NCBI GenBank assembly: GCA_902798865.1
Contig: CADBYQ010000008.1
Span: 1-34,484, forward strand
Length of the DNA: 34,484 bases
DNA from: Pseudoselenomonas ruminantium
Lineage (GTDB): Bacteria > Bacillota > Negativicutes > Selenomonadales > Selenomonadaceae
Direction: 5' to 3'
Program-made: the position numbers and the translations under genes
Notes under the pieces: model-generated
Seen by the model: only the letters and a program-made list of their open reading frames with translations
The model's database searches: none
Told to the model about the DNA's origin: nothing
Shown here: positions 7,517 to 28,454 of the stretch, in pieces
Position numbering within the stretch: position 1 is the stretch's first letter
Layout of the letters: each line of letters begins with the position of its first letter

Positions 7517-7545
7517 TTGGTTATTTTTTGTGTTTGCGATATAAT
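7517..7545 (+). promoter_or_regulatory. Promoter of the restriction-modification gene
   Basis: TTGGTT (7517-7522), a spacer of exactly 17 bases and a perfect TATAAT (7540-7545) lie just after the preceding terminator. This gives a leader of about 28 bases before the ATG at 7580. Confidence 0.7.
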
Positions 7546-7579
7546 TAAGGAAATAGTTTGCGAAGGCGTTGGAGGCACA

Positions 7580-11257: not shown

Positions 11258-11276
11258 AGGGAGAGATTTTAGTTTT

Positions 11277-12347
11277 ATGGAGAAACAGCTTATATTGAGT
11301 GGAATAAATATCCATCATTTTAGGGGCATAAATGAATTGAAAATAAATGATTTATCCCTGGTAAATGTCCTCGCTGGCCCTAACAACTGCGGAAAAACCA
11401 GTGCTTTAGAAGCAATTCGTATTCTAACCAACCCTAGTGATATTGGGCAGTTGATTCGGCTTTCTACCATAAGAGCCAGTGTATCTAAAGAAGCTAAAAA
11501 AAGAAATATTGTTCAATATTTACTAAGTGTTTTTCAAAAAGATACGGAATCAGATGAATCAAGCGCATCGTATCGCATTAAAATCGGAGCCAATATAAAA
11601 AATATAGATTATCTTTATGAAGCTGGTGGTACTGTCGGAAAAATAACGAATACATCAGGCGAACCGCAAACCATGATGGATTTATCTGTAAAGATATCCA
11701 ATTCAGCAGATAAAAAACCAAAATATAAATATGATAAAATTATAAATAATGCAGATACGTTATTCACAGCTGATGAAAATGATTTATATCATGCAATGTA
11801 TGTATTTTCCAGTGTGAATTACTACCGCACTACTGCCCGTGACATAAAAGACTATATCATAGATAATGGGAAGGATGAATTGCTGGATATTCTTAAGTCG
11901 TTTGATGATACCATTCGGGATATTAGTATCATAGATGAGGAGATTTACTTGCATAGTACTTCAAGTGGAACACTCCCGTTGTTCTCATATGGTGCGGGAA
12001 TGCAGAAAGCTCTTTGCCTGGCTGTTGAAATTGCCTATTGTAAGAATGGTATCATACTGGTAGATGAAATAGATAATGCAATACATGTTTCGGCATTTAG
12101 AGATGTATTCTATTGGTTCTTGAACGCTTGCAGGAAATATCATGTACAGGCATTTATTACTACGCACAGTGCAGAAGCGTTAGATGCGATTCTGTCTATT
12201 GTACATAACCATTTCTCTAAAGAGGATTTGTTGCGTGTTATTACTTTGAGAAAAGACAATGTGTCTCAAATTACGAGAAGTAAAATACGTACAGGGGAAG
12301 AAGCATACAGCGACAGAGAAGATTATGAATTGGAGTTGCGGATATGA
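11277..12347 (+). CDS. AAA (OLD/AriA-like) ATPase of a defence pair
   Basis: A 356-aa ATPase of the AAA_15/OLD-like, SMC-related class. Walker A is GPNNCGKTS (residues 35-43), following 'INIHHFRGINELKINDLSLVNVLAG', which is the typical N-terminal strand pair. The signature-like SYGAGMQKALCLAVEIAY, Walker B IILVDEIDNAIH and switch histidine FITTHSAEALDAI follow in order. The gene directly follows the restriction-modification gene (19 bases apart) and overlaps the next gene by four bases (ATGA), indicating translational coupling. An ATPase followed by a TOPRIM-type partner is the architecture of PARIS (AriA-AriB) and related anti-phage pairs, so a role in phage defence is likely. Assignment to a named system is not certain. 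Base composition is markedly A+T rich compared with the housekeeping genes around it. Confidence 0.8.
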   Translation: MEKQLILSGINIHHFRGINELKINDLSLVNVLAGPNNCGKTSALEAIRILTNPSDIGQLIRLSTIRASVSKEAKKRNIVQYLLSVFQKDTESDESSASYRIKIGANIKNIDYLYEAGGTVGKITNTSGEPQTMMDLSVKISNSADKKPKYKYDKIINNADTLFTADENDLYHAMYVFSSVNYYRTTARDIKDYIIDNGKDELLDILKSFDDTIRDISIIDEEIYLHSTSSGTLPLFSYGAGMQKALCLAVEIAYCKNGIILVDEIDNAIHVSAFRDVFYWFLNACRKYHVQAFITTHSAEALDAILSIVHNHFSKEDLLRVITLRKDNVSQITRSKIRTGEEAYSDREDYELELRI

Positions 12348-13030
12348 AATCCATTATATTATGCGAAGGTCAGGATGACCTTTGGTTTATTTCCTATTTT
12401 CTTCATAAAACTGATGGCTGGATAATGGACAATAATAAATCTTTGTGGAAAAATTATAAGATCCCACAAAATAAAGCCAGCCGAAAAGTAGCTTATATGA
12501 AAAAAGATAATAATGGTGTTGCGATATGGAGCGTAGGCGGAAAGGATAGTTTTGCGGAACCTTTGCATATAAATGACGATGAGAATGAAATATTGGCTGG
12601 TATTGCTGAAAGCATAAAAGATGACCTATCACTTAAAAATAAAATCCCCACTACATGCGATATCGAATGCTCAAATGGGGAAATAGCGCATACCCAAATT
12701 ACGCCCGTGATATTTCCGTTTTATGAAGCAGGGGCAATAGAAACACTGTTAATGAATGCCGTTAAAGAACAAAATGAAGGCGGTAGCATAATTTACGAAG
12801 AAGCGCAAAAGTATGTTTCATTTCTCGAAAATAATGACGAAATTACTGTTTATTCTGAAGAATATGGTTTTACCAGAACTAATTTACCAGGAGAAGATGA
12901 ACATAGTTCTTTAAAAAGAGTATTTTATTTGAAGAGTGTATCTGATTTATATAAAAGTATGAATTTCTTTGCACTGATGCTTTCTTTTTTCTCCCCCGGA
13001 ATATCCCGGATGGCGTCGTCGCCGTGCTGA
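12344..13030 (+). CDS. TOPRIM-like partner protein (DUF3226/DUF4435 type), probably C-terminally truncated
   Basis: A 228-codon frame coupled to the ATPase by an ATGA overlap. It opens with MKSIILCEGQDDLWFISYFL, the TOPRIM glutamate motif (E8, with G-x-D-D), and later has IWSVGGKDSF, as in DUF3226/DUF4435 proteins that partner OLD/AriA-like ATPases. The acidic D-x-D strand normally found some 25 residues after GGKD is represented only by NDDENEIL eight residues later, so an internal deletion is possible. The last 19 residues or so (after YKSMNFF) are encoded by sequence antisense to glnK and look like read-through past a breakpoint near 12,965. The real protein may be non-functional. The identification rests on motifs and neighbour order. 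Confidence 0.6.
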   Translation: MKSIILCEGQDDLWFISYFLHKTDGWIMDNNKSLWKNYKIPQNKASRKVAYMKKDNNGVAIWSVGGKDSFAEPLHINDDENEILAGIAESIKDDLSLKNKIPTTCDIECSNGEIAHTQITPVIFPFYEAGAIETLLMNAVKEQNEGGSIIYEEAQKYVSFLENNDEITVYSEEYGFTRTNLPGEDEHSSLKRVFYLKSVSDLYKSMNFFALMLSFFSPGISRMASSPC

Positions 13031-14842: not shown

Positions 14843-14871
14843 ATTATAGCCATTGGAAATGTCGCTGTCAA
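14843..14871 (-). promoter_or_regulatory. Perfect-consensus promoter of amtB-glnK
   Basis: Read on the minus strand, TTGACA (14871-14866), a 17-base spacer and TATAAT (14848-14843) are identical to the sigma-70/sigma-A consensus. Transcription should start near 14836. The perfect match implies strong constitutive initiation, with control exerted afterwards by an operator or the structured leader. Confidence 0.9.
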
Positions 14872-15298: not shown

Positions 15299-16999
15299 TT
15301 GTTGAATGGTTTTAACGGGAAAAAACGTTCCCCCCTGGATGCATCGGTCAAAAAATGCTTGCTGGGGGCTGTTTTTTTGGGGATTGGGTTATCTGCGTCT
15401 ACGGTTCAGGCTGCTGCGGGTGATACATGGATATACGATTCCATTACACTGCTGGCTAAGGAAGGATATATGGATATGCCGGAAAAGCCGTTGCCCGCAT
15501 ATTCCAAAAAAGAACTTGGCCGGATGGTCGCACAGGCATTATTGGAGTTTGAAAAGAACCGTACAGGCTCACTGGCTGATGAATATGGCCGTATATCACG
15601 TTTATTGGTAGTTGATGAAGTACAGCTGAAACTGGCTGAAGAACAGGAACGGGCAGCTGAATCACGGATTAAAAGCGCACGCAGCAAGGCGGCAAAAGAT
15701 ACCGAAATGTATGTGCGCCGCTCTATGCAAGGAAAAAATCGCTTGGAAGTCATGCAGCCGTTAAAAGAAAAAAGCAATGATTCGCTGAACAGACTGGAGC
15801 AGGCATCCAGAGACTATGCCCAGGCGAAAAGCCGGGTTGAGCAGCGGGCCAGAATGTTGGATTATGTCCGCAAAAGGCAGCAGGATTTACTGGCCGGTCT
15901 GAGTGGTACTGAAAATGGTTCAGCTGTTGCAGCAGGTACTGCCGGAATTTACGGGAACAGCGTTTCAGCCGGCGGGGATTCGACTTCTGTGGTACCCGCT
16001 TCGGTATTGGATACGGTTGGCCGCCTCAGGGCGGAGTTCCTGCCTGAGCTGGATGAGAATGGCAGTCTGGACAGTATGAATGCCCGTCAGCAATTGGAGT
16101 CCAATATGCCTGTGGAAGATGTACCGGATCAGCGATTGAAGGTAGATGCGGAACTTCGTTATGATGTAGGCTATTCCCGCGGGAGTTATGGTGAGGGAAG
16201 CAGACAACGTGTTCGAGCACGGGTATACCCGGATTACAATATAGACAATAACTGGCATGCTATTGGAATGGTGGAATGGGAGAAGGCAATTACCGGGAAA
16301 AAATATAATAAAGATGGCAAGCTGAAGCTGGATCGTTATTATTTGAGCGGAAATATAGGCGCTGTACATACGGATATTGGCGCTTTTGGCAGCATGATGG
16401 CAGAAGGAAATATCTATGACAGTAAATTCATGGGGGTACGTCTGCAGGCCGGTAATGCAGTTAAGTACACTTTGGAATATGGCAAAGCCGCTATTGAGGG
16501 AATGGATAAATCGTATGATGTTACCATCTCCTATCAGGATGCCGCTTATGGTGTCGGCGGCGGATATTATCATTTTCGGGATAGGGCGGGAAACAGCCGC
16601 AATATCTATATGGGAAATTACCATCATAATGTTGGGATATTGGATGCAGGCGTTATGCTTTTGTATGGCCGGGACAAGGGGCGCAGTGGTAAAACAGGTT
16701 ATGTTTTGACTTTGGGTTATACGCCGCAAAACAGCTGGCAGCCGCACACATACAGCAGCTGGCTCAAATACTATTATCAGCCCGGCTCTACATACATCAG
16801 GCATACCATGAATGGCAGGGCTGATGATATGCGCGACAATGGGGGCTTCAAGGGCTGGGGAATTGGCATAAGTTATAATCTGCCTGCAGCCTGGACTTTG
16901 GGGTTGGAATTTTATCGCTTACAGGATCTTGACTGGGGGAGACGCAGCAATACCATTTGGTTTGCCGTGACGAAGTCTTTCCAAAACTATCATGAATAA
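15299..16999 (+). CDS. Outer-membrane beta-barrel protein with SLH-like N-terminus and coiled coil
   Basis: A 566-aa exported protein starting at TTG, nine bases after GGAAAGGA. A signal peptide (cut near VQA-A39) is followed by a degenerate SLH-like segment (about 42-80: DTWIYDSITLLAKEGYMDM...YSKKELGRMVAQALL). Next comes a long charged coiled coil (about 100-195) and a low-complexity linker. From about residue 275, alternating beta strands with aromatic girdles end in WFAVTKSFQNYHE, as in outer-membrane barrels. SLH-coiled coil-barrel architecture is typical of Negativicutes outer-membrane proteins that tie the outer membrane to peptidoglycan. As first gene of the operon it may be the exit channel or anchor for the polysaccharide. 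That role is inferred from position only, and it lacks recognisable similarity to AlgE, PgaA or BcsC. Confidence 0.7.
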   Translation: MLNGFNGKKRSPLDASVKKCLLGAVFLGIGLSASTVQAAAGDTWIYDSITLLAKEGYMDMPEKPLPAYSKKELGRMVAQALLEFEKNRTGSLADEYGRISRLLVVDEVQLKLAEEQERAAESRIKSARSKAAKDTEMYVRRSMQGKNRLEVMQPLKEKSNDSLNRLEQASRDYAQAKSRVEQRARMLDYVRKRQQDLLAGLSGTENGSAVAAGTAGIYGNSVSAGGDSTSVVPASVLDTVGRLRAEFLPELDENGSLDSMNARQQLESNMPVEDVPDQRLKVDAELRYDVGYSRGSYGEGSRQRVRARVYPDYNIDNNWHAIGMVEWEKAITGKKYNKDGKLKLDRYYLSGNIGAVHTDIGAFGSMMAEGNIYDSKFMGVRLQAGNAVKYTLEYGKAAIEGMDKSYDVTISYQDAAYGVGGGYYHFRDRAGNSRNIYMGNYHHNVGILDAGVMLLYGRDKGRSGKTGYVLTLGYTPQNSWQPHTYSSWLKYYYQPGSTYIRHTMNGRADDMRDNGGFKGWGIGISYNLPAAWTLGLEFYRLQDLDWGRRSNTIWFAVTKSFQNYHE

Positions 17000-17054
17000 T
17001 TTTGCCGGTAAAAATGGGGAAGCAACAGCTTGGAAAGGATGACAGTAGCATATC

Positions 17055-18371
17055 ATGGGGGTATTTTGCGAATTAAGCAATAAGAAAACAAAATTGGCCG
17101 TAGTCGGATTGGGGTATGTGGGCTTGCCTTTAGCGGCAGCTTTTGCGGAAAAGTTTTCGGTTATTGGCTTTGATCTTAATACGAAAAAAATCGCTGCGTA
17201 TAAACAGGGACATGATATTACCGCAGAACTGGGTGATGAGGCTTTACAGGCAGCCGGTATCGATTTTACTTCTGACCCGCGGCGATTAACCGAGGCTTCT
17301 TTTATGGTAATCGCGGTGCCGACACCGATAAATGGGGATAAGACACCCAACCTTGACCCGGTTAAGGGGGCTACGGAAACCGTAGCAAAATATATAAAAA
17401 AGGACACGATTGTGGTATATGAATCCACAGTTTATCCCGGTGTTACAGAGGATATCTGTCGGCCGTTGCTGGAAAAAGTTTCCGGCTTAAAAGGCGGATG
17501 TGATTTTAAAATCGGTTATTCGCCGGAACGGATTAATCCGGGAGATAAAAAGCATCGTCTGAAGAGCATTACCAAGATTGTTTCCGGTGAGGATGCCGAA
17601 ACACTTAAGGAAATTGCAGCTGTATATGGAGCGATAATTGATACGATATATGAGGTTTCTTCCATTAAGGTGGCCGAGGCTGCTAAATTGGTAGAAAACA
17701 CGCAGCGGGATATCAATATTGCGTTTATGAATGAATTGGCGATGGTTTTTCATCAGATGGGGATTGATACAGCGGAAGTGACTGCGGCCATGGACACCAA
17801 GTGGAACGCCTTAAAATTTCGGCCCGGACTGGTGGGCGGTCATTGTATAGGGGTAGATCCCTATTATTTCATCTACGAGGCTGAAAATCTTGATCAATAC
17901 TCCCAGCTGATTTCTGCCGGACGGCGCATTAATAATGATATGAGTAAATTTGTAGCCAATGAAATCGTGAAGGTTATGTTAAAGGCAGGTTTGGATGCGC
18001 CTCATGCCCAAATTTACCTGTTGGGGATGACGTTTAAGGAGAATTGTCCGGATACCAGAAATTCCCGTTCCGTGGATGTCTATCATCATTTACAGGAATA
18101 TGGTCTGCAGGTATTTGCCACCGACCCACTGGCCGATAAAGATGATTTTCGGCGGGAATATGGGATTGATTTGATTCCGGAAGAATCGATAAGCAATGCG
18201 GACTGTCTTGTACTTTTGGTGGCACATGATTGTTATGTAAAACAATCGTTGGCGGAGTTGCGTCGTTTTTATCGAAACGGCAATAAACATCCGTTGGTGC
18301 TCATCGATATTAAAAGCATATATGGGCGTGAAGCTGCTGAACAGGCGGGCTATATATATTGGAGCTTATAA
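17055..18371 (+). CDS. Nucleotide-sugar 6-dehydrogenase (UDP-HexNAc type, WbpO/TviB-like)
   Basis: A 438-aa cytosolic NAD+-dependent enzyme that oxidises C6 of a UDP-sugar to the uronate. The Rossmann motif KLAVVGLGYVGLPLAAAFAE, PTPI...NLDPV, ESTVYPGVTED, the GYSPERINPGDKKH signature and the catalytic cysteine motif GGHCIGVDPYYF are all present. The 'SPERINPGDK-H' form is characteristic of enzymes acting on UDP-N-acetylhexosamines (WbpA, WbpO, TviB) more than on UDP-glucose, so a UDP-HexNAc uronate is the likely product. The start is not well marked. ATG 17055 lies 15 bases after AAAGGA, and an in-frame stop at 17046 rules out anything further upstream. It feeds substrate to the glycosyltransferase two genes downstream. 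Confidence 0.9.
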   Translation: MGVFCELSNKKTKLAVVGLGYVGLPLAAAFAEKFSVIGFDLNTKKIAAYKQGHDITAELGDEALQAAGIDFTSDPRRLTEASFMVIAVPTPINGDKTPNLDPVKGATETVAKYIKKDTIVVYESTVYPGVTEDICRPLLEKVSGLKGGCDFKIGYSPERINPGDKKHRLKSITKIVSGEDAETLKEIAAVYGAIIDTIYEVSSIKVAEAAKLVENTQRDINIAFMNELAMVFHQMGIDTAEVTAAMDTKWNALKFRPGLVGGHCIGVDPYYFIYEAENLDQYSQLISAGRRINNDMSKFVANEIVKVMLKAGLDAPHAQIYLLGMTFKENCPDTRNSRSVDVYHHLQEYGLQVFATDPLADKDDFRREYGIDLIPEESISNADCLVLLVAHDCYVKQSLAELRRFYRNGNKHPLVLIDIKSIYGREAAEQAGYIYWSL

Positions 18372-18391
18372 ATGGGAGGGTTATATTCAGC

Positions 18392-19345
18392 GTGAATTTT
18401 AAGAAACTTGGACTCATTGTAGCGCTCTGTTTGGCAACGATAGTAGGGACGCTTATTCTGATTCGGGATCATGTCATTGAAAAAACAGAATTTATTCCCG
18501 ATATAACGGATTTGACGCATAATTATCTGGCAGAGGAGGAAATCCGCGAAGCCACGGAAAAAAGACAGGCGGCGGATATAAAACCTGCTGAAGTGATTAC
18601 TACCCTGCAGGATGGAACACCGTATGTGGCGCTGGTATTTGATGGTATGCCGGACAGGCCTTTGGCGTCGCGGCTGTTGGATGTCCTGGCAAAACATAAA
18701 GCGGATGCCGTTTTCTTTGTTGAAGGAGAGAATGTGGCTGATGAACCGGAAACCATGAAACTGATTCGCAGTGCAGGACAGGAAGTGGGCAATTATACTT
18801 ATGTTGGCCTGGCTGCCATGGAAAAACGTCCTGTTGAGGAACAGCTGCGGGAGTTATGCCGTACGCAAAAGGCTGTTACCATGCATGATCCGCTGAAGCC
18901 AACATTATTCAGGGCTCCGCGGACAATTTACAGTGATGATTTGTTAAAGAGTGTTCGTGCGGCAGGCCTGGAATATGCGGTTAAGGAAAACGTGCGTTTT
19001 CAGCCCGGAAATATTCATAATCAGGTGGAAGCAGACAACTATGCTGCGTCCATCCTGAACGGCAGTATTATTGCCATACCGGTAAATCATCCGGTAGAAC
19101 AAAAGGCAGATGATCGTGTGGTGCGGGAAGAAAAACCGGCTGTGGATATGAAGCCAACTGTAAGGGATGATAACTCAGCGGCAGTTCCGCCTGCTGCTGA
19201 CCTGGCCACGGAACTGGATTTGCTGCTTACAGCATTTGACGCAAAAGGTGTGCAGGTTGTATTTGTGAATCAGTTCCGCAAAATACATTATATTCCGGCC
19301 AACCTGCCGTTATTCAATAAGGCTGAGCAAGGAGGCGCTAAATGA
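18392..19345 (+). CDS. Membrane-anchored NodB-like (polysaccharide deacetylase) pseudoenzyme
   Basis: A 317-aa protein with an N-terminal membrane anchor (residues 6-25) and a periplasmic domain of the CE4/NodB fold (about 78-260). The fold is clear: YVALVFDGMPDRPLASRLLDVLAKHKADAVFFVEGENV...LIRSAGQEVGNYTY, then TLFRAPRTIYSDD. The catalytic residues are gone. The TFDDG motif reads VFDGM, and the metal-binding H-T-x-x-H reads Y-T-Y-V-G (residues 135-139). It therefore probably binds glycan or a partner rather than deacetylating. GTG 18392 follows GGGAGGG by 11 bases; an earlier TTG at 18359 overlaps the previous gene and has no ribosome site. Its stop overlaps the next ATG (ATGA). Confidence 0.75.
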   Translation: MNFKKLGLIVALCLATIVGTLILIRDHVIEKTEFIPDITDLTHNYLAEEEIREATEKRQAADIKPAEVITTLQDGTPYVALVFDGMPDRPLASRLLDVLAKHKADAVFFVEGENVADEPETMKLIRSAGQEVGNYTYVGLAAMEKRPVEEQLRELCRTQKAVTMHDPLKPTLFRAPRTIYSDDLLKSVRAAGLEYAVKENVRFQPGNIHNQVEADNYAASILNGSIIAIPVNHPVEQKADDRVVREEKPAVDMKPTVRDDNSAAVPPAADLATELDLLLTAFDAKGVQVVFVNQFRKIHYIPANLPLFNKAEQGGAK

Positions 19346-21243
19346 TAACCGTAAAGGACAATCCCGTGAAAAATACGAATACCGATGCAGAACCACAGGA
19401 TGTTCTTCTGGAGGAAAAGCCTGATCGCCGTCTGCTGTCCTATGTTCCGGATGATAATGGTTTGCGAAATAATCATGATCGTCGTGGAGCTTTTAAGGAA
19501 GATGAACATGGGATAGTTGATTATGTGCTGTATCAGCAGGAGGATAAACGGGGACAGCGATATCTGGTCGACTACGAAGTCACTGTGGAATTGGCCCATC
19601 AGACAGGGAGAAGGGAACTGGTGGGGAAAGCGGTGGATATCAGCACAACAGGTATGCTTTTGAAATTGCCCCATGAGGAAACGGAAAACATTCATAAGGC
19701 TGACCAGGTCAGGCTGACTTTTGTCATTACGCCGGGCTCTATGCCTGAAGGCTATGAGATGAAAATCAAAAAATTAAGGGCACGCTGTATACGTCTGGTA
19801 AAAAAAGAAGACGGGACGATACTTTGCGGCCTGGAATTTATTGATACCCTGGCGCAGTATGCTGCACATAAACGGCAAAATTATCTGTTGGGAGCATCTG
19901 CTTTTTGTCTGGGCATTATCACTTTGGTAATCATTATGATGCGGGCGGAATCCGTAGTATATTTTCGCTTTAATCGCTGGTTGTATTTGTACAGTATTAT
20001 TGCAGCGACATTTCTTTTATCCCGCTATTTTTTTGCGGTGTTTTACAGGCCGGTACCGATTGATCCGAAGTATACGCCCGGGGTTACGGTGATTATTCCT
20101 TGCTTTAATGAAGAAAACTGGATTAAGCGGACGATTCATAGCTGTATTAATCAGGATTATCCGGCGGATAATCTGGAAGTCATTGTTGTAGATGACCACT
20201 CCAATGATAATTCGGTGGAGCGCATAAAGGAAGCTATTGCTGAAATCAAAGCAGCAGATACGGAAAATGGCAGTTATCATACGGATACGCGTATCCGCTA
20301 TATTGTTCAGCCCGTTAACAAAGGAAAACGGGAGGCTATGGCTTTGGGGGCTGCGGAAGCAAAGCATGAACTTTTGGTGTTTGTGGATTCGGACAGTTTT
20401 CTTGATCCGTTTGCGGTACGCAATATCGTTCAGCCGTTCAAGGATAAGGAAATGGGCGGCGTTTCCGGCCGTACGGATGTAGCCAATACCTATACCAATG
20501 CGCTTACCCGCATGCAGTCTGTGCGTTATTATATTGCCTTCCGGATTATGAAAGCGGCAGAAAGTTATTTTGATGCGGTTACCTGTCTGTCCGGACCACT
20601 TTCCTGTTATCGCCGGGATTTGGTACTGAAGTATGCGGATGCCTGGCTCAACCAAAAGTTTTTGGGACAAAAAGCAACCTTTGGTGATGACCGCAGTATG
20701 ACTAACTTTATTTTGCGGCATAACCGTACAGCTTATCAGGATTCAGCCGTTTGTGCTACAATCGTGCCCAACAGTTATACGGTTTTTTTGAAACAGCAGA
20801 TGCGTTGGAAGCGCTCCTGGTTGCGGGAATCCCTGATTGCAGCCAGATATATTTGGAAGAAGGAACCCTTTATGTCCCTGAGTTTTTATATGGGACTGAT
20901 GGTACCGATTGCTGCGCCGATTATCGTATTGTATAACCTGATTTATGTACCGGTGATGCATCGGGTTTTCCCGGTTACGTTTGTAGCAGGTATGATTCTT
21001 ATGGCCCTGTTGATGAGTATGGCACAGCTTTTCCTGCGCCGCAGCAGCACCTGGCTTTTTGGTATGTGGTTCTGTTTGTACTATGAAGCTGTACTTTTGT
21101 GGCAGATGCCTGTGGCCTGGTTCACTTTTTGGAAATCTACCTGGGGTACACGTCTGACTCCGGCAGATTTGGCCGAGATGGAAAAAGAACGGCTCAAAAA
21201 GGAACGGAAGGAGGAAAAGAAAAAGCATGCATCCAAAAAATAA
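19342..21243 (+). CDS. PilZ-GT2 fusion: processive polysaccharide synthase
   Basis: A 633-aa membrane synthase predicted to polymerise and translocate the exopolysaccharide. A PilZ-like c-di-GMP domain occupies about residues 65-175, with KRGQR at 69-73 and DISTTG at 99-104. Two transmembrane helices follow (about 181-204 and 212-235). A family 2 glycosyltransferase (about 245-500) has VDDHSND (D284/D285), VDSDS (DxD at 349-351), CLSGPLSCYR, GDD (448-450) and QQMRW (485-489), the full processive set seen in hyaluronan, alginate and cellulose synthases. Three more membrane segments and a lysine-rich tail end the protein. PilZ lies N-terminal, unlike BcsA (C-terminal) or alginate (separate Alg44). 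The first arginine motif is RxxR or KxxxR rather than a clean RxxxR, so c-di-GMP binding needs testing. Confidence 0.85.
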   Translation: MITVKDNPVKNTNTDAEPQDVLLEEKPDRRLLSYVPDDNGLRNNHDRRGAFKEDEHGIVDYVLYQQEDKRGQRYLVDYEVTVELAHQTGRRELVGKAVDISTTGMLLKLPHEETENIHKADQVRLTFVITPGSMPEGYEMKIKKLRARCIRLVKKEDGTILCGLEFIDTLAQYAAHKRQNYLLGASAFCLGIITLVIIMMRAESVVYFRFNRWLYLYSIIAATFLLSRYFFAVFYRPVPIDPKYTPGVTVIIPCFNEENWIKRTIHSCINQDYPADNLEVIVVDDHSNDNSVERIKEAIAEIKAADTENGSYHTDTRIRYIVQPVNKGKREAMALGAAEAKHELLVFVDSDSFLDPFAVRNIVQPFKDKEMGGVSGRTDVANTYTNALTRMQSVRYYIAFRIMKAAESYFDAVTCLSGPLSCYRRDLVLKYADAWLNQKFLGQKATFGDDRSMTNFILRHNRTAYQDSAVCATIVPNSYTVFLKQQMRWKRSWLRESLIAARYIWKKEPFMSLSFYMGLMVPIAAPIIVLYNLIYVPVMHRVFPVTFVAGMILMALLMSMAQLFLRRSSTWLFGMWFCLYYEAVLLWQMPVAWFTFWKSTWGTRLTPADLAEMEKERLKKERKEEKKKHASKK

Positions 21244-23134
21244 TATCGATGAACGGGTTCTTGCACTACAGGACAGCGGTTTCACGCAACGCAAAAATCG
21301 CAGGAAAAAATTGCGGGTTGTTGTGGAATTGGTGGTTTTGGCTATTATGGCCTTTGGTATATGCACGCTTTTTTTCACCTTGAGAACCTATCAGCCTTAT
21401 GATCATGCAGCTGTTGCTGCCGGTGATCAGGATACCGGATTTGTCGCACTGTCCTATTTCGGTGTGGATCATATTGGTGATACCTCTACACTGATTGGGC
21501 AAAAACAATTGCATAAGCATTTACAGGAGTTAAAGCGGCAGGGATTTGTAACCATAACGCAGCAGGATATAAAAGATTATTATCAGCTGAATAAACCCTT
21601 GCCGCCGAAATCCCTGTATCTTATGTTTGAAGATGGGCGACGGGATACGGCTATCTTTGCGCAGCCGGTTCTTGAGGATTTGAACTTCAAGGCCACGATG
21701 ATGAGTTACGGAGAAAATATTGAGTCCCTGGATTTGAAATTTTTGAACCCGTCAGAGTTGGAGGAATTGGAGAAGTCCTCATTTTGGGAACCGGGAACCA
21801 ATGGTTATCGGTTGGAATATATCAATGTTTTTGACCGCTATAATAATTATATTGGTGAGATTGATCCTTTGCGCTATGCCATGATTTCGCCCTATTTGGA
21901 GCGGCGCTATAATCATTATCTTATGGATTATATTCGCGATAAGGATGGTGTGCCCAAGGAGAGTTACGATCATATGCGGCGTCGTATCAGCTATGATTAC
22001 GAACGCTTACGGGATATTTATATGGAGCATTTTGGCAAAGTGCCCGGCGTTTATGTTCATATGCATGCCAACACCGGTAAATTTGCCAACAATAATGCCG
22101 TCAGTGCAGTAAATGAAAAATGGATACGTGAGTTATTTACAATGGCCTTTAATCGGGAAGGTTATTGTTTCAATCAGCGAAACAGCAGTATATATGATTT
22201 GACCCGTATGCAGCCACAGCCGTATTGGCCTATCAATCACTTACTGATGCGCATAAAATATGACATCAATACACCGATAGAGTTTGTCACAGGTGACAGT
22301 TCCCGTAGCGATAACTGGAATTTGTTATCCGGTGCGGCAGAACTGGAAAATGAAACGTATACACTGACCACCTTACCGGAAGGTGAAGCCTTGGCCGAGG
22401 TGCGGGAAAGCAGTAATTTGCCGGATGTAAAAATATCGACCAATTTATTGGGCAATTCCTTTGGTGCACAGCAGATTTTTTTGCGTAGCGACAGCAACAG
22501 GCAAAATTATCTTTGCGTAGAATTGATTAACAATGAGTTATTGGTATTGGAGAAAACGAATTACGGACGCAGAGAATTATATCGGGAAGAAATACCGGTT
22601 ATTCTGGGCGAGAAAATACCTTCTGTCGAAGAAAATAAACGGGAGGCAGAAACGCAGGAAAATCTCGCCTTTGCCCGTTATGCGACATCGGCAGAACAGG
22701 CAGAGGAATATTATGGCAGGGCGAAAAAAAGAGAAGCTATGCCGGCAGCTGCTGTTGAAGATGGGGCAGAGGCCTATAAGCATGTGCAAAGTTTCCATCG
22801 CCGCAGCGTTCATAAGTTGGAGATTGACTTAAAGGGAAGCCGCTTGTCCTTGAAACTGGATGATAAAAATATACCGCAGGATATTACCGTAGCGGAAAAT
22901 GGTCAGGGCGGTGTTTTGCTAGGGGCTTCCTGGCAGGGCGAGGCATGGAGTCAGCGAAATCTTGCTGATGATGTCTATGATGCGGTTTTTGAAAAGTTTA
23001 CCATTACGACCAATACAGGAAAAGATGAGGAAAAAGTACTGTTTACGACAGAACTTTCCGGCTGGGATAAGTTTGTATTCCAGGCAAAGGAAACCTGGGA
23101 AAGTATTCTTTGCTGGTTCTTGCGCAATGGGTAA
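21227..23134 (+). CDS. Membrane-anchored NodB-like protein with C-terminal beta-sandwich
   Basis: A 635-aa protein, basic N-terminus then one transmembrane helix (about 31-52), the rest periplasmic. Residues 70-330 resemble the PgaB/PelA-type deacetylase fold: GFVALSYFGVDH, LKRQGFVTITQQDI, LPPKSLYLMFEDGRRD, FKATMMSYGENI. The metal motif is FEDG (E135, D136) instead of FDDG. The usual H-x3-H segment is replaced by FWEPGTNGYRLEYINV, so activity is doubtful. From about 355 to 620 a jelly-roll or LamG/DUF1080-like domain is likely, interrupted by a charged insert (about 465-530). ATG 21227 overlaps the synthase gene by 17 bases, indicating tight co-expression. A role in modifying or guiding the polymer as it leaves the synthase is inferred. 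Confidence 0.65.
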   Translation: MHPKNNIDERVLALQDSGFTQRKNRRKKLRVVVELVVLAIMAFGICTLFFTLRTYQPYDHAAVAAGDQDTGFVALSYFGVDHIGDTSTLIGQKQLHKHLQELKRQGFVTITQQDIKDYYQLNKPLPPKSLYLMFEDGRRDTAIFAQPVLEDLNFKATMMSYGENIESLDLKFLNPSELEELEKSSFWEPGTNGYRLEYINVFDRYNNYIGEIDPLRYAMISPYLERRYNHYLMDYIRDKDGVPKESYDHMRRRISYDYERLRDIYMEHFGKVPGVYVHMHANTGKFANNNAVSAVNEKWIRELFTMAFNREGYCFNQRNSSIYDLTRMQPQPYWPINHLLMRIKYDINTPIEFVTGDSSRSDNWNLLSGAAELENETYTLTTLPEGEALAEVRESSNLPDVKISTNLLGNSFGAQQIFLRSDSNRQNYLCVELINNELLVLEKTNYGRRELYREEIPVILGEKIPSVEENKREAETQENLAFARYATSAEQAEEYYGRAKKREAMPAAAVEDGAEAYKHVQSFHRRSVHKLEIDLKGSRLSLKLDDKNIPQDITVAENGQGGVLLGASWQGEAWSQRNLADDVYDAVFEKFTITTNTGKDEEKVLFTTELSGWDKFVFQAKETWESILCWFLRNG

Positions 23135-23152
23135 ATAAAGGGAGTGGTTGAG

Positions 23153-24190
23153 ATGAAGCGATATCTTTCTTTAGTCGCATGGGGGCTGTCGGTGTTTTTC
23201 TTAACAGGCTGCGCTCAAGGAGCTGTATTGCAAAGCGGCAGTCATGCTCCGGTGGAGTTATCCTCATGGGTCGCATCATGGGACAAGGATAAGGGCCTTA
23301 CCGAGTACCATCAGTTCAAAAATCATTTATCCAGTATTGGCTGTTTTATGGCTTATTACGATAGCGAAGATAAGTTGTTCATACCAGCAGAAACTAAGGA
23401 AATCGCGGACTTTGTCCGCAAGGAAGGGCATAAGCAGCGCTATCTTACGATAACCAATGACTGGCAGGACAAAAAAGGACGGCAAAATCCCAAGGATAGG
23501 GATTTACTCAAAAGGCTGTTCATCAATGATGAACGCAAAGAGGAATGTGTTCAGGAAATGTTGGCTGCAGCCAAAGAGCTCGAATGTACCGGCATAGAAT
23601 TGGACTACGAAGCCTTTTTTAAGGATAAGGAACTCTTGCAGGATTATTTGTCGTTTACCTATAAATTGTCCAGGGCCTGTATAAAAGAAAACTTGGATTT
23701 GCGTATTGTCTTGGAACCGGGTATGCCTATGGACGCGGGCCTTTGTAAAGGGCCTGAGTATGTGGTCATGTTTTACAATCTTCATGGCAAGCATAGCGGG
23801 CCGGGAGCTAAGGCGGATGCAGCGTTTATTCAAAAGACTATTGAGAAAATGGCGGCTATTCCCGGACGGAAAAGTGCAGCCTTTGCTACTGGCGGCTGTT
23901 TGTGGGAAGATTATGGTCTTTTGGGACTTAAGAAAGGCCCTGTTCGTTTTGTCGATGAAGATGAGGCAGCTGCTTTGGTGCAAAAGCATAGTCTCACGCC
24001 TGAACGCGATGCCGAAAGTGCTGCGCTGCATTGTCAATATGAGGAAAATGGGCATCATTATGAGTTATGGTATGCTGACAGCGAAACCATAAATGCCTGG
24101 ATAAAACTTGCTGCCGACAATGGTATTGAACGAATCAGTTTGTGGCGCCTGGGAGGCAATACCGACATCAAGGCGGTTAAAAACCGGTAA
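23153..24190 (+). CDS. GH18-like glycosidase lipoprotein
   Basis: A 345-aa lipoprotein: the signal MKRYLSLVAWGLSVFFLTGC has a standard lipobox (LTGC, lipidated C20). The mature domain is a TIM barrel similar to GH18/YaaH-type hydrolases. It starts with SSWVASWDKDKGLTEY, and GIELDYEAF (147-155) corresponds to the DxxDxDxE catalytic strand. D151 and E153 are kept, the first two acidic positions altered. LRIVLEPG, YVVMFYNLHG and ERISLWRLGG are later barrel strands. It could cut or trim a HexNAc-containing polymer, the role of the glycosidase domains in PgaB and PelA. The ATG at 23153 is eight bases after AAGGGAG; the upstream GTG at 23144 overlaps the ribosome site. Confidence 0.75.
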   Translation: MKRYLSLVAWGLSVFFLTGCAQGAVLQSGSHAPVELSSWVASWDKDKGLTEYHQFKNHLSSIGCFMAYYDSEDKLFIPAETKEIADFVRKEGHKQRYLTITNDWQDKKGRQNPKDRDLLKRLFINDERKEECVQEMLAAAKELECTGIELDYEAFFKDKELLQDYLSFTYKLSRACIKENLDLRIVLEPGMPMDAGLCKGPEYVVMFYNLHGKHSGPGAKADAAFIQKTIEKMAAIPGRKSAAFATGGCLWEDYGLLGLKKGPVRFVDEDEAAALVQKHSLTPERDAESAALHCQYEENGHHYELWYADSETINAWIKLAADNGIERISLWRLGGNTDIKAVKNR

Positions 24191-24212
24191 GGAATGAAAG
24201 GAATCTGACGAT

Positions 24213-25943
24213 ATGATGGGATTGCAAAAGTTGAGCAGTTACCTGCGTAAGGGGGCAGCAGCCGTTTTTTTCAGCATGGCACTGCTTGCTTATCCAACGT
24301 ACTGTGCAGCGACGGATTTTGAACAGTTAAGGCTGCAAAATGCGGGGAATTTAGCGGAGGCAAAGCGTTATTTGCCCACTACCGAAAAAGCCGTTATCCT
24401 GACTTTTGGCGGTCTGTCCAAGAAGGCGCCGCTGCAAAATATCCTGAGCTATATGGCTCAGGAACATTTGCGGGGAACGTTCTTTGTAACGGAGCGGGAA
24501 TTACAGCGCAATGGTGATAATCTGCAGCTGATAAAAGCTTATGGTCAGGACTTTGCTATGGGATTAACGCCGACCAAAACGGGTACCTTTGCTGATTATT
24601 GTGCGCAAATCCAAAGACTCGATAAAGCGTTGCAGGAACGCTATGGTACAAAGAGCAAATTTGTCCGCATTATGACCAGCGGCGGGGACAGAGCGGCTAT
24701 GGAAGAAGCCATTTCCGCTATGGGCTGTACCTTGGTCGGGCAGGGGCTGAATGTCGTTCAGTCCAAGCATAAAAATGCGCAAACTCCGCAGGAGGTGATG
24801 CCGCAGATTTTTGGCAAATGGACGACCTCGCTGAATATGGGCGAAATCGTCTACATGCGCACGGATTTTTATACCAATGATGTTCTGGCTGCGGAAATGC
24901 TTAAAGAAATCAAGCAGAAGAAAATAGATAATATTGGCTATAAAACGGATGATAAGGGAGAGCCGAAGAAGTGTAATGATTCGGTCTACCATACGGCATC
25001 TCTGGCAGATGTGGCTGGAAACAGCGATTTTCATTACAGCTATCCGGTCAACAAAGATGATTTGCCGATAGAAATGCAGCCGGAATATGGCAATAATTGG
25101 GTGACCGATGAAAATTTCTCCAGCGCTTTTTACAGCCGTTATATCGGGGCACCGGAAGTCAGTGCCAACGATAGAATGTTGGGCTTTTCCCGGGAGGAGA
25201 TGACCCGTGCGGATAAGACGGGATTGGTTAAAACAGCCCCGCCGAAAACGGTGTTTCTGACTTTTGATGACTGGGGCAATGATGATTCCATCAATAAGAT
25301 ATTGTATGTATTGCGCAAACACAATGTTCATGGGACATTTTTTATCATCACGCGCAATATGCTGAATAACCCGAACTTGTTGCGCGCTATTGCTATGGAC
25401 GGCAATGAAATCGGCAGCCATACCAATAATCATGTTGCCATGACGGTGCAGGATAAGCGCGGCCGGCAGATACCCGTGGAATCGGAAGAAGAATACCGTG
25501 AAGATGTGACGTCTTCCTATCCCAAATTGCTTTCGGTGGTGGGGGATATGCGCCTGGCTAATGGACGTCCGGCGCTTACCAGACTGCTTCGTCCGCCGAC
25601 GCTGGCCGTCAGCCGCATGGGTGTAAAGACGATACTCAATGCAGGCTTTACCTATATTGTCAATGGTTCAGGCAGTACGGAAGATTATGGGGCGGTTTCC
25701 ATGCAGTCCTTGGTGGGGATTATGAATCATATCGTACATGATGAAAAGGGCAATGTTCGTCAAGGGGCAATTCTCATCATGCACATGAGCTCCACAGCCC
25801 AGCGTACGCCGGAGGCATTGGATATCCTCCTCACAGCCAATGACAAGCTGCCGGCAGGCCATCCCGGCAAATTTCAGGTCGGTCTGTTAGGCGATTACCT
25901 GATTGATGGTTATGACCAGCGGCAGCCCTTGAAAAAAGAATAA
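24213..25943 (+). CDS. Secreted polysaccharide deacetylase with two NodB domains
   Basis: A 576-aa exported protein: signal peptide (1-33, cut near YCA-A). The first NodB-like domain (about 58-230) has lost its metal site, with TFDDG replaced by TFGGL (64-68). The second (about 345-570) is intact, with TFDDWG (350-355), SHTNNH (402-407), RPPTLAVS (460-467) and LIMHMS (521-526), matching motifs 1, 2, 3 and 5 of CE4 deacetylases. It should remove N- or O-acetyl groups from the polysaccharide or from peptidoglycan. AAAGGA is ten bases before ATG 24213. It closes the seven-gene operon. It is the only NodB domain of the four in the operon with a complete active site. No clear terminator follows; the next promoter starts 15 bases downstream. 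Confidence 0.88.
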   Translation: MMGLQKLSSYLRKGAAAVFFSMALLAYPTYCAATDFEQLRLQNAGNLAEAKRYLPTTEKAVILTFGGLSKKAPLQNILSYMAQEHLRGTFFVTERELQRNGDNLQLIKAYGQDFAMGLTPTKTGTFADYCAQIQRLDKALQERYGTKSKFVRIMTSGGDRAAMEEAISAMGCTLVGQGLNVVQSKHKNAQTPQEVMPQIFGKWTTSLNMGEIVYMRTDFYTNDVLAAEMLKEIKQKKIDNIGYKTDDKGEPKKCNDSVYHTASLADVAGNSDFHYSYPVNKDDLPIEMQPEYGNNWVTDENFSSAFYSRYIGAPEVSANDRMLGFSREEMTRADKTGLVKTAPPKTVFLTFDDWGNDDSINKILYVLRKHNVHGTFFIITRNMLNNPNLLRAIAMDGNEIGSHTNNHVAMTVQDKRGRQIPVESEEEYREDVTSSYPKLLSVVGDMRLANGRPALTRLLRPPTLAVSRMGVKTILNAGFTYIVNGSGSTEDYGAVSMQSLVGIMNHIVHDEKGNVRQGAILIMHMSSTAQRTPEALDILLTANDKLPAGHPGKFQVGLLGDYLIDGYDQRQPLKKE

Positions 25944-25987: not shown

Positions 25988-26007
25988 ATTTATAACGAGC
26001 AAACGCA

Positions 26008-26111
26008 TAACTCCGAGCAAAAATATCTAAGGTTTATGATTATTCGTGGCTATGATATTGCGCCGGGGCTCTGCTGGAAACGGCAGAACCTTCCATGTTG
26101 AAAAGGGGTAT
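26008..26111 (+). promoter_or_regulatory. Moco (molybdenum/tungsten cofactor) riboswitch
   Basis: The leader matches the Moco RNA pattern as I remember it from E. coli moaA. An ACTC-x-x-AGC block (from 26010) is followed by ATCTAAGG and a GAT..TTGCGCCGGGGC stretch. Then comes a hairpin CTCTGC...GCAGA closed by GGGG...ACCTTCC. ATAACTCC at the 5' side pairs with GGGGTAT (26105-26111) as the closing stem. It precedes two MoeA-type genes and an intrinsic terminator, fitting cofactor-responsive attenuation. The call rests on motif memory and context; a covariance search was not run. Confidence 0.75.
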
Positions 26112-26140
26112 CTATTTTGATTGTGGCCGGTCATTAGGTG

Positions 26141-26178
26141 AAGACTATCCTTTTCGCATGGAGGGGATAGTCTTTTTG
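26141..26178 (+). terminator. Riboswitch-controlled intrinsic terminator
   Basis: AAGACTATCC (26141-26150) pairs perfectly with GGATAGTCTT (26165-26174) and runs into TTT-G. It stands 20 bases before the first gene, after its own promoter, so it acts as an attenuator rather than an end-of-operon terminator. Confidence 0.88.
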
Positions 26179-26197: not shown

Positions 26198-27229
26198 ATG
26201 AAGGAAATGCGCACTGAAGATGCAGTGGGGCAGATTCTCTGCCATGATTTGACGCAGATTATAAGGGGCGTGACCAAGGATGCCCGCTTCCGTAAAGGTC
26301 ATGTGATTCAGGCGGAAGATATTCCTGTGCTCTTGTCTATGGGCAAGGACCATATTTATGTCTGGGAAAATGATGAGTCCATGCTCCATGAAAATGAGGC
26401 AGCAGAAATCCTGCGGCAGCTTTGTCAGAATGAATACATGACGGCTTCTGAACCCAAGGAAGGGAAAATTGAACTGACGGCGGCCGTCGACGGTGTTTTT
26501 CAGGTGGATGAGAGCCGTTTTGATGCGGTAACTGAGCTGGATGATGTGACCATTGCCACCCTGCCGCAGAATATGCCGGTCAAGGCTGGTCAGAAGCTGG
26601 CCGGCATGCGGGTTATTCCTTTGGTCATAGCGAAGGAAAAAATGGAGCAGGTGAAGAAAAAAGCAGGAGATAAGCCGCTTTTACGCCTGCGTCCTTATCG
26701 GCAAAATCTCAAGGTCGGTGTGGTGACAACAGGCAATGAGGTGTTTTGGGGGCGTATTGAAGATACCTTTACGCCGGTTATTGAAAGCAAGTTAAACGCC
26801 TTTGGCCTGACCATCAATGAGCACCGCCTGTCCGATGATGCCATAGAGCACACGCAAAAACATATTGAAGAACTGATAGAATTGGGCATGGATATGGTCA
26901 TTTGCACCGGGGGCATGAGCGTTGACCCGGATGATCGGACACCGGCGGCTATTCGGGCAGCGGGGGCGCAGATTGTCACCTATGGAGCGCCGACCCTGCC
27001 CGGGGCAATGTTCCTGCTTGGCTATGTGGCAAAAGGTGATAAGGGAATTCCCGTTATGGGCCTGCCCGGCTGTGTGATGTATGCAGGGCGTACGATATTT
27101 GACCTGATTCTGCCCCGCGTAATTACAGGGGAAAAACTGACGCGCAAGGAAATTCGCCATTTTGGCATTGGCGGGCTTTGCATGAACTGCAAGGTTTGTC
27201 ATTATCCGGCTTGTGGATTCCAGCACTGA
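26198..27229 (+). CDS. MoeA/MogA-like molybdopterin-binding protein with C-terminal cysteine cluster
   Basis: A 343-aa cytosolic protein of the molybdopterin-binding (MoCF) superfamily, involved in molybdenum cofactor handling. The N-terminal part (about 1-165) resembles MoeA domains: VGQILCHDLTQI...KGHVIQAEDIPVLLSMGKDHIYV. The MoCF domain begins at KVGVVTTGNEVFWGRIEDTF and contains CTGGMSVDPDDRTP and LPGAMFLLGY. MGLPGCVMY follows, where MoeA has GNP. The C-terminus carries C328-x2-C331-x2-C334-x4-C339 (LCMNCKVCHYPACGF), a possible metal or Fe-S site found in this subfamily. ATG 26198 is seven bases after AAGGGAGA. It sits under the Moco riboswitch and is followed 13 bases later by moeA. Confidence 0.88.
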   Translation: MKEMRTEDAVGQILCHDLTQIIRGVTKDARFRKGHVIQAEDIPVLLSMGKDHIYVWENDESMLHENEAAEILRQLCQNEYMTASEPKEGKIELTAAVDGVFQVDESRFDAVTELDDVTIATLPQNMPVKAGQKLAGMRVIPLVIAKEKMEQVKKKAGDKPLLRLRPYRQNLKVGVVTTGNEVFWGRIEDTFTPVIESKLNAFGLTINEHRLSDDAIEHTQKHIEELIELGMDMVICTGGMSVDPDDRTPAAIRAAGAQIVTYGAPTLPGAMFLLGYVAKGDKGIPVMGLPGCVMYAGRTIFDLILPRVITGEKLTRKEIRHFGIGGLCMNCKVCHYPACGFQH

Positions 27230-27242
27230 GGAGGGAAGACGT

Positions 27243-28454
27243 ATGCAAAATTTATCTTTGGAAAAGACGGTAGACTTTTTGCAGGCACATTGTCAGCGGG
27301 TAACGGCGGTGGAGGAAGTACCCTTGCTTTCGGCTTTAGGACGAATTCTGGCTGAAGATTATGTGGCTGCTTTTGATAATCCGCCTTTTGACCGTTCACC
27401 TTTGGATGGCTATACCTTTGCGGCAGAGGAAACGGCCGGGCATGATGCGGCTAATCCGGCCCAGTTTAAGATTATCGGTGAGGAATGTGCGGGCGGTTTC
27501 TTTGCTGAAGAAGTGCCAAAGGGCTGCGCCCTGCGCATTATGACGGGCGGCGCCATTCCACAGGGCTGCAACTGTGTCGTGCGGCAGGAAGATGTGGCTG
27601 TGGATGGCGATACCATTAGGGTGCCTTTTGGCATTGAACCGTATACGAATTTTTGCTTTGCCGGTGAGGATATTCAAAAGGGGACTAAACTGGCGAAAAA
27701 AGGCACGAAACTTACGGCTGCGCATATCGGCGTGTTGGCAAGTATGGGCTTTGCTGCGGTCAAGGTTTTGGGTAATGTGCGCATTGCCATTGCCAGCACG
27801 GGAGATGAATTGGTTTCGCCTGGACAGCCGCTTTTGCCCGGCAAGATATACAACAGCAATCTTTATCTTTTAGCCAGTCGTCTGCAGGAATTGGGCTTTG
27901 CGCCGGAGATTGTGGGGACGCTGCCTGATGATGCAGAGGAGGCTGCCAGGATTATACAAGGTTATCGTGACCGGGTAGATGTGTTCCTGACCACGGGCGG
28001 CGTGTCTGTAGGGAAGAAGGATATCATGCATGGCGTGGTGGAAAAAGTCGGTCAGCGCCTGTTCTGGCAGGTCGCGATGAAGCCGGGGGCTCCGGTACTG
28101 GCCTACACGATGGGGGAAACCTTGGGGCTTGCCCTGTCTGGTAATCCCTTTGCCGCTTGTGCAACCTTTGAACTTATCGCTGTGCCGGTGCTGGCGCATA
28201 TCAGCGGCAATGATAAGATTTTGCCCCAGCGTGCGCAGGCTGTGCTGACGGATGCTTTTCCCAAGGAAAGCCGGGGCCGGCGTTTTATTCGCGGTTACTA
28301 TGAAAACGGCAAGGTGCGACTGCCGGAGCAGCATTCATCGGGGAGCCTTTTCTCGATGGTGGGCTGCAATGCCTTTGTGGATATTCCGGCAGGTACAGGA
28401 AAACTGGCGAAGGAAACCGAAGTGGATATCGTGCGCCTGTACCGCGTGAAGTGA
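27243..28454 (+). CDS. moeA: Molybdopterin molybdenumtransferase MoeA
   Basis: A 403-aa enzyme that inserts molybdate into adenylylated molybdopterin to give the active cofactor. Domains run in standard MoeA order. The N-terminal part has ALGRILAEDYVAAFDNPPFDRSPLDGYTF (the conserved PPFD-S-DG motif). The beta domain has GGAIPQGCNCVVRQED. The MoCF domain starts at RIAIASTGDEL with TTGGVSVGKKDIMHGV and MKPGAPVLAYT...LSGNPFA. Domain IV ends in VRLYRVK. ATG 27243 follows GGAGGG; the open frame from 27213 overlaps the preceding gene and is not preferred. Both genes should be repressed together when cofactor is plentiful. Confidence 0.94.
   Translation: MQNLSLEKTVDFLQAHCQRVTAVEEVPLLSALGRILAEDYVAAFDNPPFDRSPLDGYTFAAEETAGHDAANPAQFKIIGEECAGGFFAEEVPKGCALRIMTGGAIPQGCNCVVRQEDVAVDGDTIRVPFGIEPYTNFCFAGEDIQKGTKLAKKGTKLTAAHIGVLASMGFAAVKVLGNVRIAIASTGDELVSPGQPLLPGKIYNSNLYLLASRLQELGFAPEIVGTLPDDAEEAARIIQGYRDRVDVFLTTGGVSVGKKDIMHGVVEKVGQRLFWQVAMKPGAPVLAYTMGETLGLALSGNPFAACATFELIAVPVLAHISGNDKILPQRAQAVLTDAFPKESRGRRFIRGYYENGKVRLPEQHSSGSLFSMVGCNAFVDIPAGTGKLAKETEVDIVRLYRVK

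Follow-up and report, generated by a model that had tools for sequence, protein, structure and literature searches.

In the streptococcal hasAB genes, a hyaluronan synthase (HAS) is paired with a nucleotide-sugar dehydrogenase. The same kind of pairing is found in an operon of Pseudoselenomonas ruminantium that lies on a 34,484-nucleotide stretch of DNA (positions 1 to 34,484 of contig CADBYQ010000008.1, assembly GCA_902798865.1; here called the window), in a genome of 2.6 Mb, 300 contigs, and 84% completeness. Its seven genes encode, in order, an outer-membrane barrel (OMB), a UDP-sugar dehydrogenase (UGDH), a NodB-fold protein (PDA1), a synthase in which a PilZ domain is fused to a family 2 glycosyltransferase (PilZ-GT2), a PgaB-like protein, a lipoprotein resembling glycoside hydrolase family 18 (GH18), and a further NodB-fold protein (PDA2). 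Like class I HAS (PDB 7sp6 and 8smm), the synthase has a GT2 core with the motifs GKRE, DxD, RYxxAF, GDDR, and QxxRW and a WGT(R) gating loop. It differs from those enzymes in its N-terminal PilZ domain, in lying in a bacterial operon that also encodes NodB and GH18 proteins, in the N-acetylhexosamine (HexNAc) type of the accompanying dehydrogenase, and in an identity of ~30%.

Other described systems resemble the locus in part. The poly-N-acetylglucosamine (PNAG) machines pgaABCD and icaADBC share with it a PgaB-like protein, the combination of deacetylase and glycoside-hydrolase-like functions, and, through homologs from Sporomusa, an architecture of tetratricopeptide repeats (TPR) and barrel; here, however, UGDH is present, PilZ is part of the synthase, and the synthase falls far under the PgaC cutoff. 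The alginate system (Alg8/Alg44/AlgE) also ties an N-terminal PilZ domain to an inner-membrane GT2 complex, and an acidic polymer is expected in both cases, but in the window PilZ is fused to GT2 itself, the barrel is of the OmpM type, and there is no Alg44 membrane-fusion part. Fusions of PilZ and GT2 of the cyclic di-GMP (c-di-GMP) type are found in Firmicutes in the clostridial cellulose synthase Ccs and in Romboutsia RiGT2, which differ in having a C-terminal PilZ domain and a BcsA-type GT2 and in lacking the NodB/GH18/UGDH set. The Gram-positive Pel system (pelDEADAFG) has the same theme of deacetylase/hydrolase and c-di-GMP in Firmicutes, but no homolog of PelF, PelG, or PelD is found among the seven proteins.

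We conclude that the operon is a real and conserved synthase-dependent exopolysaccharide system that is apparently undescribed, as a first-pass annotation of the sequence had proposed; no description was found in the literature searched, which did not include subscription papers and is thus weak evidence of absence. What sets it apart most is its PilZ-HAS-like synthase, together with pseudo-deacetylase domains that are conserved and an outer-membrane part confined to diderms. The best explanation of the gene set, in which we have moderate confidence, is a machine for an acidic, partly deacetylated polymer that contains N-acetylhexosaminuronic acid and possibly alternates like hyaluronan. We infer the chemistry, the order of steps, the export route, and the c-di-GMP control as follows. 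UGDH would produce the uronate by oxidizing a UDP-N-acetylhexosamine (probably UDP-GlcNAc), and the inner-membrane PilZ-GT2 would polymerize this uronate, probably along with UDP-GlcNAc, while threading the chain through its own channel; c-di-GMP bound to PilZ probably gates this synthesis. In the periplasm, the anchored PgaB-like protein and the dead NodB domains may bind and guide the chain, the single active NodB domain may remove some of the N-acetyl groups, and the GH18-like lipoprotein may trim or clear polymer. The OmpM-type barrel would be the exit in two-membrane members; one-membrane members lack it. The sequences themselves show which genes are present, their synteny, the restriction of the barrel to Negativicutes, and which motifs are conserved or lost.

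A shared core in one- and two-membrane relatives

A clear ortholog of the synthase is present in 19 of 60 genomes of the class (the window's own genome counted), scattered across many genera, in 8 of 398 Bacillota genomes drawn evenly, and in 3 of 150 genomes of one Lachnospiraceae family. The system is therefore widespread but patchy. The window's genome is Selenomonas ruminantium-like: the synthase is 99% identical to that of the metagenome-assembled genome (MAG) RUG13114 and 87% identical to that of S. ruminantium ATCC 12561. Among the best 80 of 318 relatives from a scan of named genomes are many Clostridia (Clostridium, Lachnospiraceae, Anaerocolumna, Acetobacterium, and Tissierella), and relatives are also found in Selenomonas, Mitsuokella, and Megasphaera. 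Divergent genomes from the class have the operon genes side by side, as do most of another 75 loci, so their grouping is not due to chance. A gene-neighborhood search across relatives, for which an unconserved gene order had been named beforehand as grounds for refutation, found the order to be conserved.

In Negativicutes, the genes are kept together up to family-level distance. The order is OMB-UGDH-PDA1-GT2-PgaB-like-GH18-PDA2 in Selenomonadaceae and OMB-UGDH-(fused PDA1-PDA2, ~880 amino acids)-GT2-PgaB-like-GH18 in Sporomusaceae. The Clostridia have a core of fused PDA-GT2-PgaB-like-GH18, with UGDH in some loci and OMB in none, and a plasmid of Paenibacillus cellulositrophicus carries PDA-UGDH-GT2-PgaB-like-GH18. 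Negativicutes, Clostridia, and Paenibacillus thus have in common a core of PilZ-GT2, the PgaB-like membrane protein, a protein with several NodB domains, and the GH18-like protein, to which UGDH is often added. The first-pass annotation had placed the operon in a diderm-Firmicute setting. Because the core is present in monoderm Clostridia and Paenibacillus too, it is not an invention of diderm Firmicutes; the barrel alone is diderm specific.

Among Firmicutes of the rumen, the gut, and the environment, the operon would represent a new lineage of synthase-dependent exopolysaccharide systems. With a core shared across one- and two-membrane relatives, it offers a natural experiment in the adaptation of polymer export to an outer membrane, tied to the question of how Firmicutes kept or lost that membrane.

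A few loci show irregularities. Two contigs labeled Acholeplasmataceae (L108 and L127) carry Negativicutes-like versions of the operon, L127 with the barrel, and are probably mislabeled or derived from mixed bins. In one relative, the barrel gene and PDA2 each occur a second time 3' of the operon (L063:15703-19650). Apparent frame breaks are seen in the PgaB-like gene of L055 and in PDA1 of L057, possibly due to sequencing errors in MAGs.

The PilZ-GT2 synthase and its possible control

The best solved relatives of the GT2 domain in PDB are hyaluronan synthases. The roles of the catalytic, channel, and gating-loop residues of HAS have been described, and the matching HAS class is described as occurring in vertebrates and large DNA viruses (PMC11750622 for the former, PMC12987647 for both). 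Using the roles given in these two papers, we mapped HAS residues onto the synthase. K177 of HAS corresponds to K329 and the DxD motif to D349/D351. R287, Y288, F292, and C307 of XlHAS1 correspond to R395, Y396, F400, and C415, and R296 is replaced by K404. D342/R343 are found as D450/R451 and R381/W382/S385 as R488/W489/S492; Q485 is also kept. R348 of CvHAS aligns with R495, and the gating loop WGTR lies at residues 601 to 604. The class I HAS features DxD, GDDR, QxxRW, and the WGT gating loop with channel residues are present, and by alignment the synthase retains nearly all of the catalytic, channel, and gating-loop residues of HAS. The motifs RYxxAF, WLxQxFLGxxATFGDDRxxTN, and WGTR are shared by the synthase and HAS and are absent from the NodC and PgaC controls. 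To this extent, the synthase is HAS-like rather than PNAG- or alginate-like (the first-pass annotation had likened parts of the operon to Pel, PNAG, and alginate machines), and it is the first case noted in this analysis of a PilZ domain joined to such an enzyme.

Two results count against a closer assignment: the identity of the synthase to HAS and to NodC is about equal (~30%), and a GT2 tree of the synthase with HAS, NodC, and PgaC has very long branches, puts NodC and HAS in one group, and leaves PgaC unplaced. For these reasons, we call the synthase HAS-like and not HAS. Other synthase types were rejected: PgaC/IcaA (TIGR03937, 110.5 bits versus a cutoff of 422.3), BcsA (TIGR03030, 56.5 bits versus a cutoff of 699.1, with the PilZ domain N-terminal and not C-terminal), and Alg8 and the type designated PgaB in our comparison, both on scores and motifs.

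Whether the PilZ domain confers control by c-di-GMP, as the first-pass annotation had proposed, was judged from its residues and its genomic surroundings. The sequence DxSxxG, which fits the (D/N)xSxxG receptor motif, occurs in 80 of 80 PilZ sequences, and two DRR motifs (residues 28 to 30 and 46 to 48, the latter with Asp in 77) and R73 are nearly invariant. The strict RxxxR motif is missing from these 80 sequences, in which (K/x)xGxR is found with the separate invariant DRR motifs instead, and the Romboutsia PilZ-GT2 protein RiGT2 did not bind c-di-GMP even though both motifs are present in it (PMC10374906). These two points, which run counter to the proposed gating, would fit a PilZ domain that serves as a structural or assembly module in a GT2 without c-di-GMP control. 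We consider that alternative somewhat unlikely, given the near invariance of DxSxxG and of the Arg-rich series DRR..DRR..GxR and the enrichment of GGDEF/EAL genes beside the operon: GGDEF genes make up 12 of 136 ORFs adjacent to it, well above an assumed background of 0.6 to 1.2% of genes. In Acidaminococcus, EAL-GGDEF proteins are encoded 30 and 71 bp upstream, and the window's own genome has 15 GGDEF domains. Control of the synthase by c-di-GMP is therefore plausible from the invariant DxSxxG but weaker than first proposed because the classical RxxxR is absent. GGDEF or GGDEF-EAL genes adjoin the operon at L088:1375-4470, L111:1915-5019, L057:3784-4710, L064:15958-18009, and L093:4523-6274.

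Proposed polymer chemistry and export

The first-pass assignment of UGDH as a UDP-HexNAc-type dehydrogenase is borne out by profile and structure matches. UGDH has Pfam UDPG_MGDP_dh domains; among NCBIfam models it scores 425 bits for TviB, which is the best subgroup although its equivalog cutoff of 592 is missed, versus 113 for TuaD; and its best PDB matches are HexNAc-uronate dehydrogenases. Within the class, 19 of 19 synthase-positive genomes but 3 of 41 negative ones have a UGDH at 52% identity or more, largely because the gene is linked to the synthase. Clostridia without a linked copy have a homolog elsewhere in 14 of 14 genomes tested (at least 53% identity in 11), and a UGDH at 52% identity or more is present in 9 of 9 Lachnospiraceae-type genomes without a linked copy versus 26 of 150 in the family background; kinship is ignored in both counts. 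From these patterns, the polymer likely contains a uronic acid. In one locus, a galE-like epimerase gene lies 67 bp 5' of the barrel gene (L062:3426-4397), a possible sign that this species uses a galacto-configured sugar.

A divergent PNAG/chitosan machine would instead make a neutral, deacetylated poly-GlcNAc, with UGDH serving another pathway and linked by habit. The PgaB-like protein and NodB domains, a score of 179 bits for the synthase against the NodC profile, and the lack of UGDH at the locus in many Clostridia speak for it. Some Clostridium genomes have UGDH away from the locus or at an identity of just ~37%, and the unlinked copies lie in other polysaccharide clusters, which weakens the case for a uronate. 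However, UGDH is linked in nearly all Negativicutes, in nine Clostridia rows, and in Paenibacillus; the GT2 has the HAS-specific R395 and WGTR and not the NodC residues; the PgaC score is far under its cutoff; and the metal-binding His pair is absent from the PgaB-like domain. We therefore regard the PNAG/chitosan reading as unlikely. The Clostridia loci without UGDH have no common extra gene family as a replacement, and their flanks are unrelated.

The three NodB-fold proteins noted in the first-pass annotation are indeed three, but they hold four NodB domains, and only one retains the metal-binding motifs. By motif comparison, the other three are conserved pseudo-deacetylases, a testable case for pseudoenzymes that handle polymer. 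In nearly all rows compared, PDA1 has FDG(L/M) or FEG at the metal Asp position, and NYT-like residues stand where the His pair would be. The N-terminal domain of PDA2 carries TF(G/R)G and likewise lacks a His pair. The CE4 (NodB) motifs TFDD, the HxxxH metal triad, RxP, and LxH are found solely in the C-terminal domain of PDA2, which keeps TFDDW, SH(T/S)xxxH, RPP, and MHM in the complete sequences. In a model of the PgaB-like protein (pLDDT 88.7), a membrane helix is combined with a NodB fold of the PgaB type and a CBM66-like sandwich (residues ~360 to 610); its target-normalized TM scores are 0.79 to the N-terminal domain of PgaB (3vus) and 0.76 to CBM66 (4b1m). Unlike PgaB, whose deacetylase has a DD and HxxxxH metal site, it lacks the metal ligands: among 75 sequences it keeps FEDG (E135-D136) and has G(T/S)NGYR at the position of the His pair. 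H280, N282, and H338 are invariant in the same sequences, so a rearranged site with other chemistry is conceivable. The GH18-like protein has no Pfam or NCBIfam match, and its fold was established by profile matches to SleL/YaaH/YdhD-type GH18 structures, in agreement with the first-pass annotation. D154, E156, M209, Y211, and N212 are invariant in 71 of 71 sequences, and the DxxDxDxE-type motif with the catalytic Glu is present as GIELDYE. Together, the PgaB-like and GH18-like findings suggest that the two functions of PgaB, a deacetylase fold and a hydrolase fold, are split over two adjacent genes.

OMB, which has no Pfam or NCBIfam match, is an outer-membrane barrel as first proposed. A profile of 36 barrel proteins matches Veillonella OmpM1 (barrel, E = 3e-16; S-layer homology [SLH] domain, E = 2e-5), and the model (pLDDT 81.5) has the OmpM layout of SLH-like domain, coiled-coil stalk, and 16 strands, with a degenerate SLH part. 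The best fold match is OmpM1 (8byt; target-normalized TM score, 0.80), with AlgE at rank 49. OMB is a dedicated paralog, since it scores 696 bits and the genome's other OmpM-type proteins reach at most 44. Unlike Veillonella OmpM, it is encoded with exopolysaccharide genes, and relatives include TPR fusions in Sporomusa and SLH-free forms in Pelosinus.

By profile and model, OMB is more like porin/tether proteins than known exopolysaccharide exporters, which argues against an export role. The barrel could accordingly be an OmpM-family porin or cell-wall tether that is merely co-transcribed, with another exit for the polymer; OmpM1, a general porin/tether, is its closest match, and the window copy has the SLH-like domain and coiled coil. 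Yet the barrel is present in 43 of 43 Negativicutes-type rows with enough flank, in none of 25 known-context rows of a Clostridia clade fully supported in the GT2 tree, and not in the Paenibacillus copy. Some relatives have short versions (339 to 366 amino acids) that have lost the SLH domain and coiled coil, and in four Sporomusa species (L072, L079, L082, and L085) the barrel is fused instead to a stretch of TPR repeats, ~600 residues long and N-terminal to it, the layout of PgaA and BcsC. The statement that a TPR scaffold and a PgaA/BcsC/AlgE ortholog are lacking thus stands for the window copy, in which the coiled coil replaces the TPR of PgaA, but not for Sporomusa. Beside non-Sporomusa barrels, no TPR gene was matched except a weak one on the opposite strand in L053. 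Since OMB is found only with an outer membrane and is fused to TPR in Sporomusa, an export role is likely, and a mere porin or tether is improbable to about the same degree as the PNAG/chitosan machine.

A sporulation or cell-wall system (PdaA/PdaB-like deacetylases and a YaaH-like GH18 protein) acting on peptidoglycan is very improbable: PDA2 scores 103 bits for PdaB and the GH18-like protein resembles SleL/YaaH, but these matches are below NCBIfam cutoffs or are general fold matches, the genes are linked to a HAS-like polymerase and UGDH, and the system is found in Selenomonas, Mitsuokella, and Megasphaera, genera that are not known to form spores.

More tentatively, the proposed acidic-polymer machine may belong to a widespread, undescribed bacterial class of PilZ-gated HAS-like enzymes making an alternating GlcNAc/N-acetylhexosaminuronate "amino-hyaluronan." The three pseudo-deacetylase domains would then serve as chain-holding lectins, and Firmicutes with two membranes would have taken on an OmpM tether-porin as their exporter.

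Locus layout and flanking features

All seven ORFs are codirectional, as the first-pass annotation had it, with successive spacings of +55, -13, -4, -17, +9, and +22 bp; Pfam and NCBIfam found the dehydrogenase, NodB-fold, and PilZ-GT2 proteins it had listed.

Table 1. Features of the operon (15299-25943, + strand) in window coordinates
Feature	Position	Strand	Basis
Candidate sigma-70 promoter (TTTACA-17-TATAAT), 58 bp 5' of first start codon	15212-15240	+	Consensus scan, 11/12 matches; by itself no evidence of function
OMB, OmpM-type outer-membrane protein, with signal peptide	15299-16999	+	OmpM1 profile and fold match
OMB, SLH-like domain	~15425-15556		
OMB, coiled coil	~15572-15901		
OMB, 16-strand barrel	~16136-16984		
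UGDH, UDP-N-acetylhexosamine-type 6-dehydrogenase (TviB-like)	17055-18371	+	Pfam, NCBIfam, PDB matches
PDA1, membrane-anchored NodB-fold protein, predicted inactive	18359-19345	+	Polysacc_deac_1, E = 5e-21; motif loss
PilZ-GT2 synthase	19342-21243	+	Pfam; HAS as best PDB matches; motif comparison
Synthase, N-terminal PilZ	19552-19848		
Synthase, HAS-like GT2 core	~20077-21159		
PgaB-like anchored protein, with transmembrane helix	21227-23134	+	Model, fold matches, weak Polysacc_deac_1
PgaB-like, pseudo-NodB	~21434-22267		
PgaB-like, CBM66-like beta-sandwich	~22316-23050		
GH18-like lipoprotein, predicted active hydrolase, lipobox LTGC	23144-24190	+	GH18 profile matches
PDA2, two NodB domains	24213-25943	+	Polysacc_deac_1; motif comparison
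PDA2, N-terminal NodB, predicted dead	~24375-24902		
PDA2, C-terminal NodB, predicted active CE4-type deacetylase	~25233-25832		

The operon is bounded upstream by a minus-strand amtB-glnB pair and downstream by a molybdenum/tungsten cofactor (Moco) riboswitch (25999-26124; 57 bits) followed by two molybdopterin biosynthesis genes (26198-28454). No c-di-GMP riboswitch was found 5' of the operon; the Moco riboswitch, which has a likely terminator at 26140-26175, is the sole Rfam match. A perfect sigma-70 consensus (TTGACA-17-TATAAT) lies on the minus strand at 14843-14871, pointing to amtB. Elsewhere in the genome, a run of other OmpM-type genes, distinct from the operon's barrel, is found on contig C125 (6707-10828). 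Beside the operon, a single-chain type I-like restriction enzyme of 1,246 amino acids (HSDR_N-like, N6 methylase, and specificity domains) precedes genes for an AAA ATPase and for a TOPRIM protein that is OLD-like; together they form a possible defense island (7517-13030).

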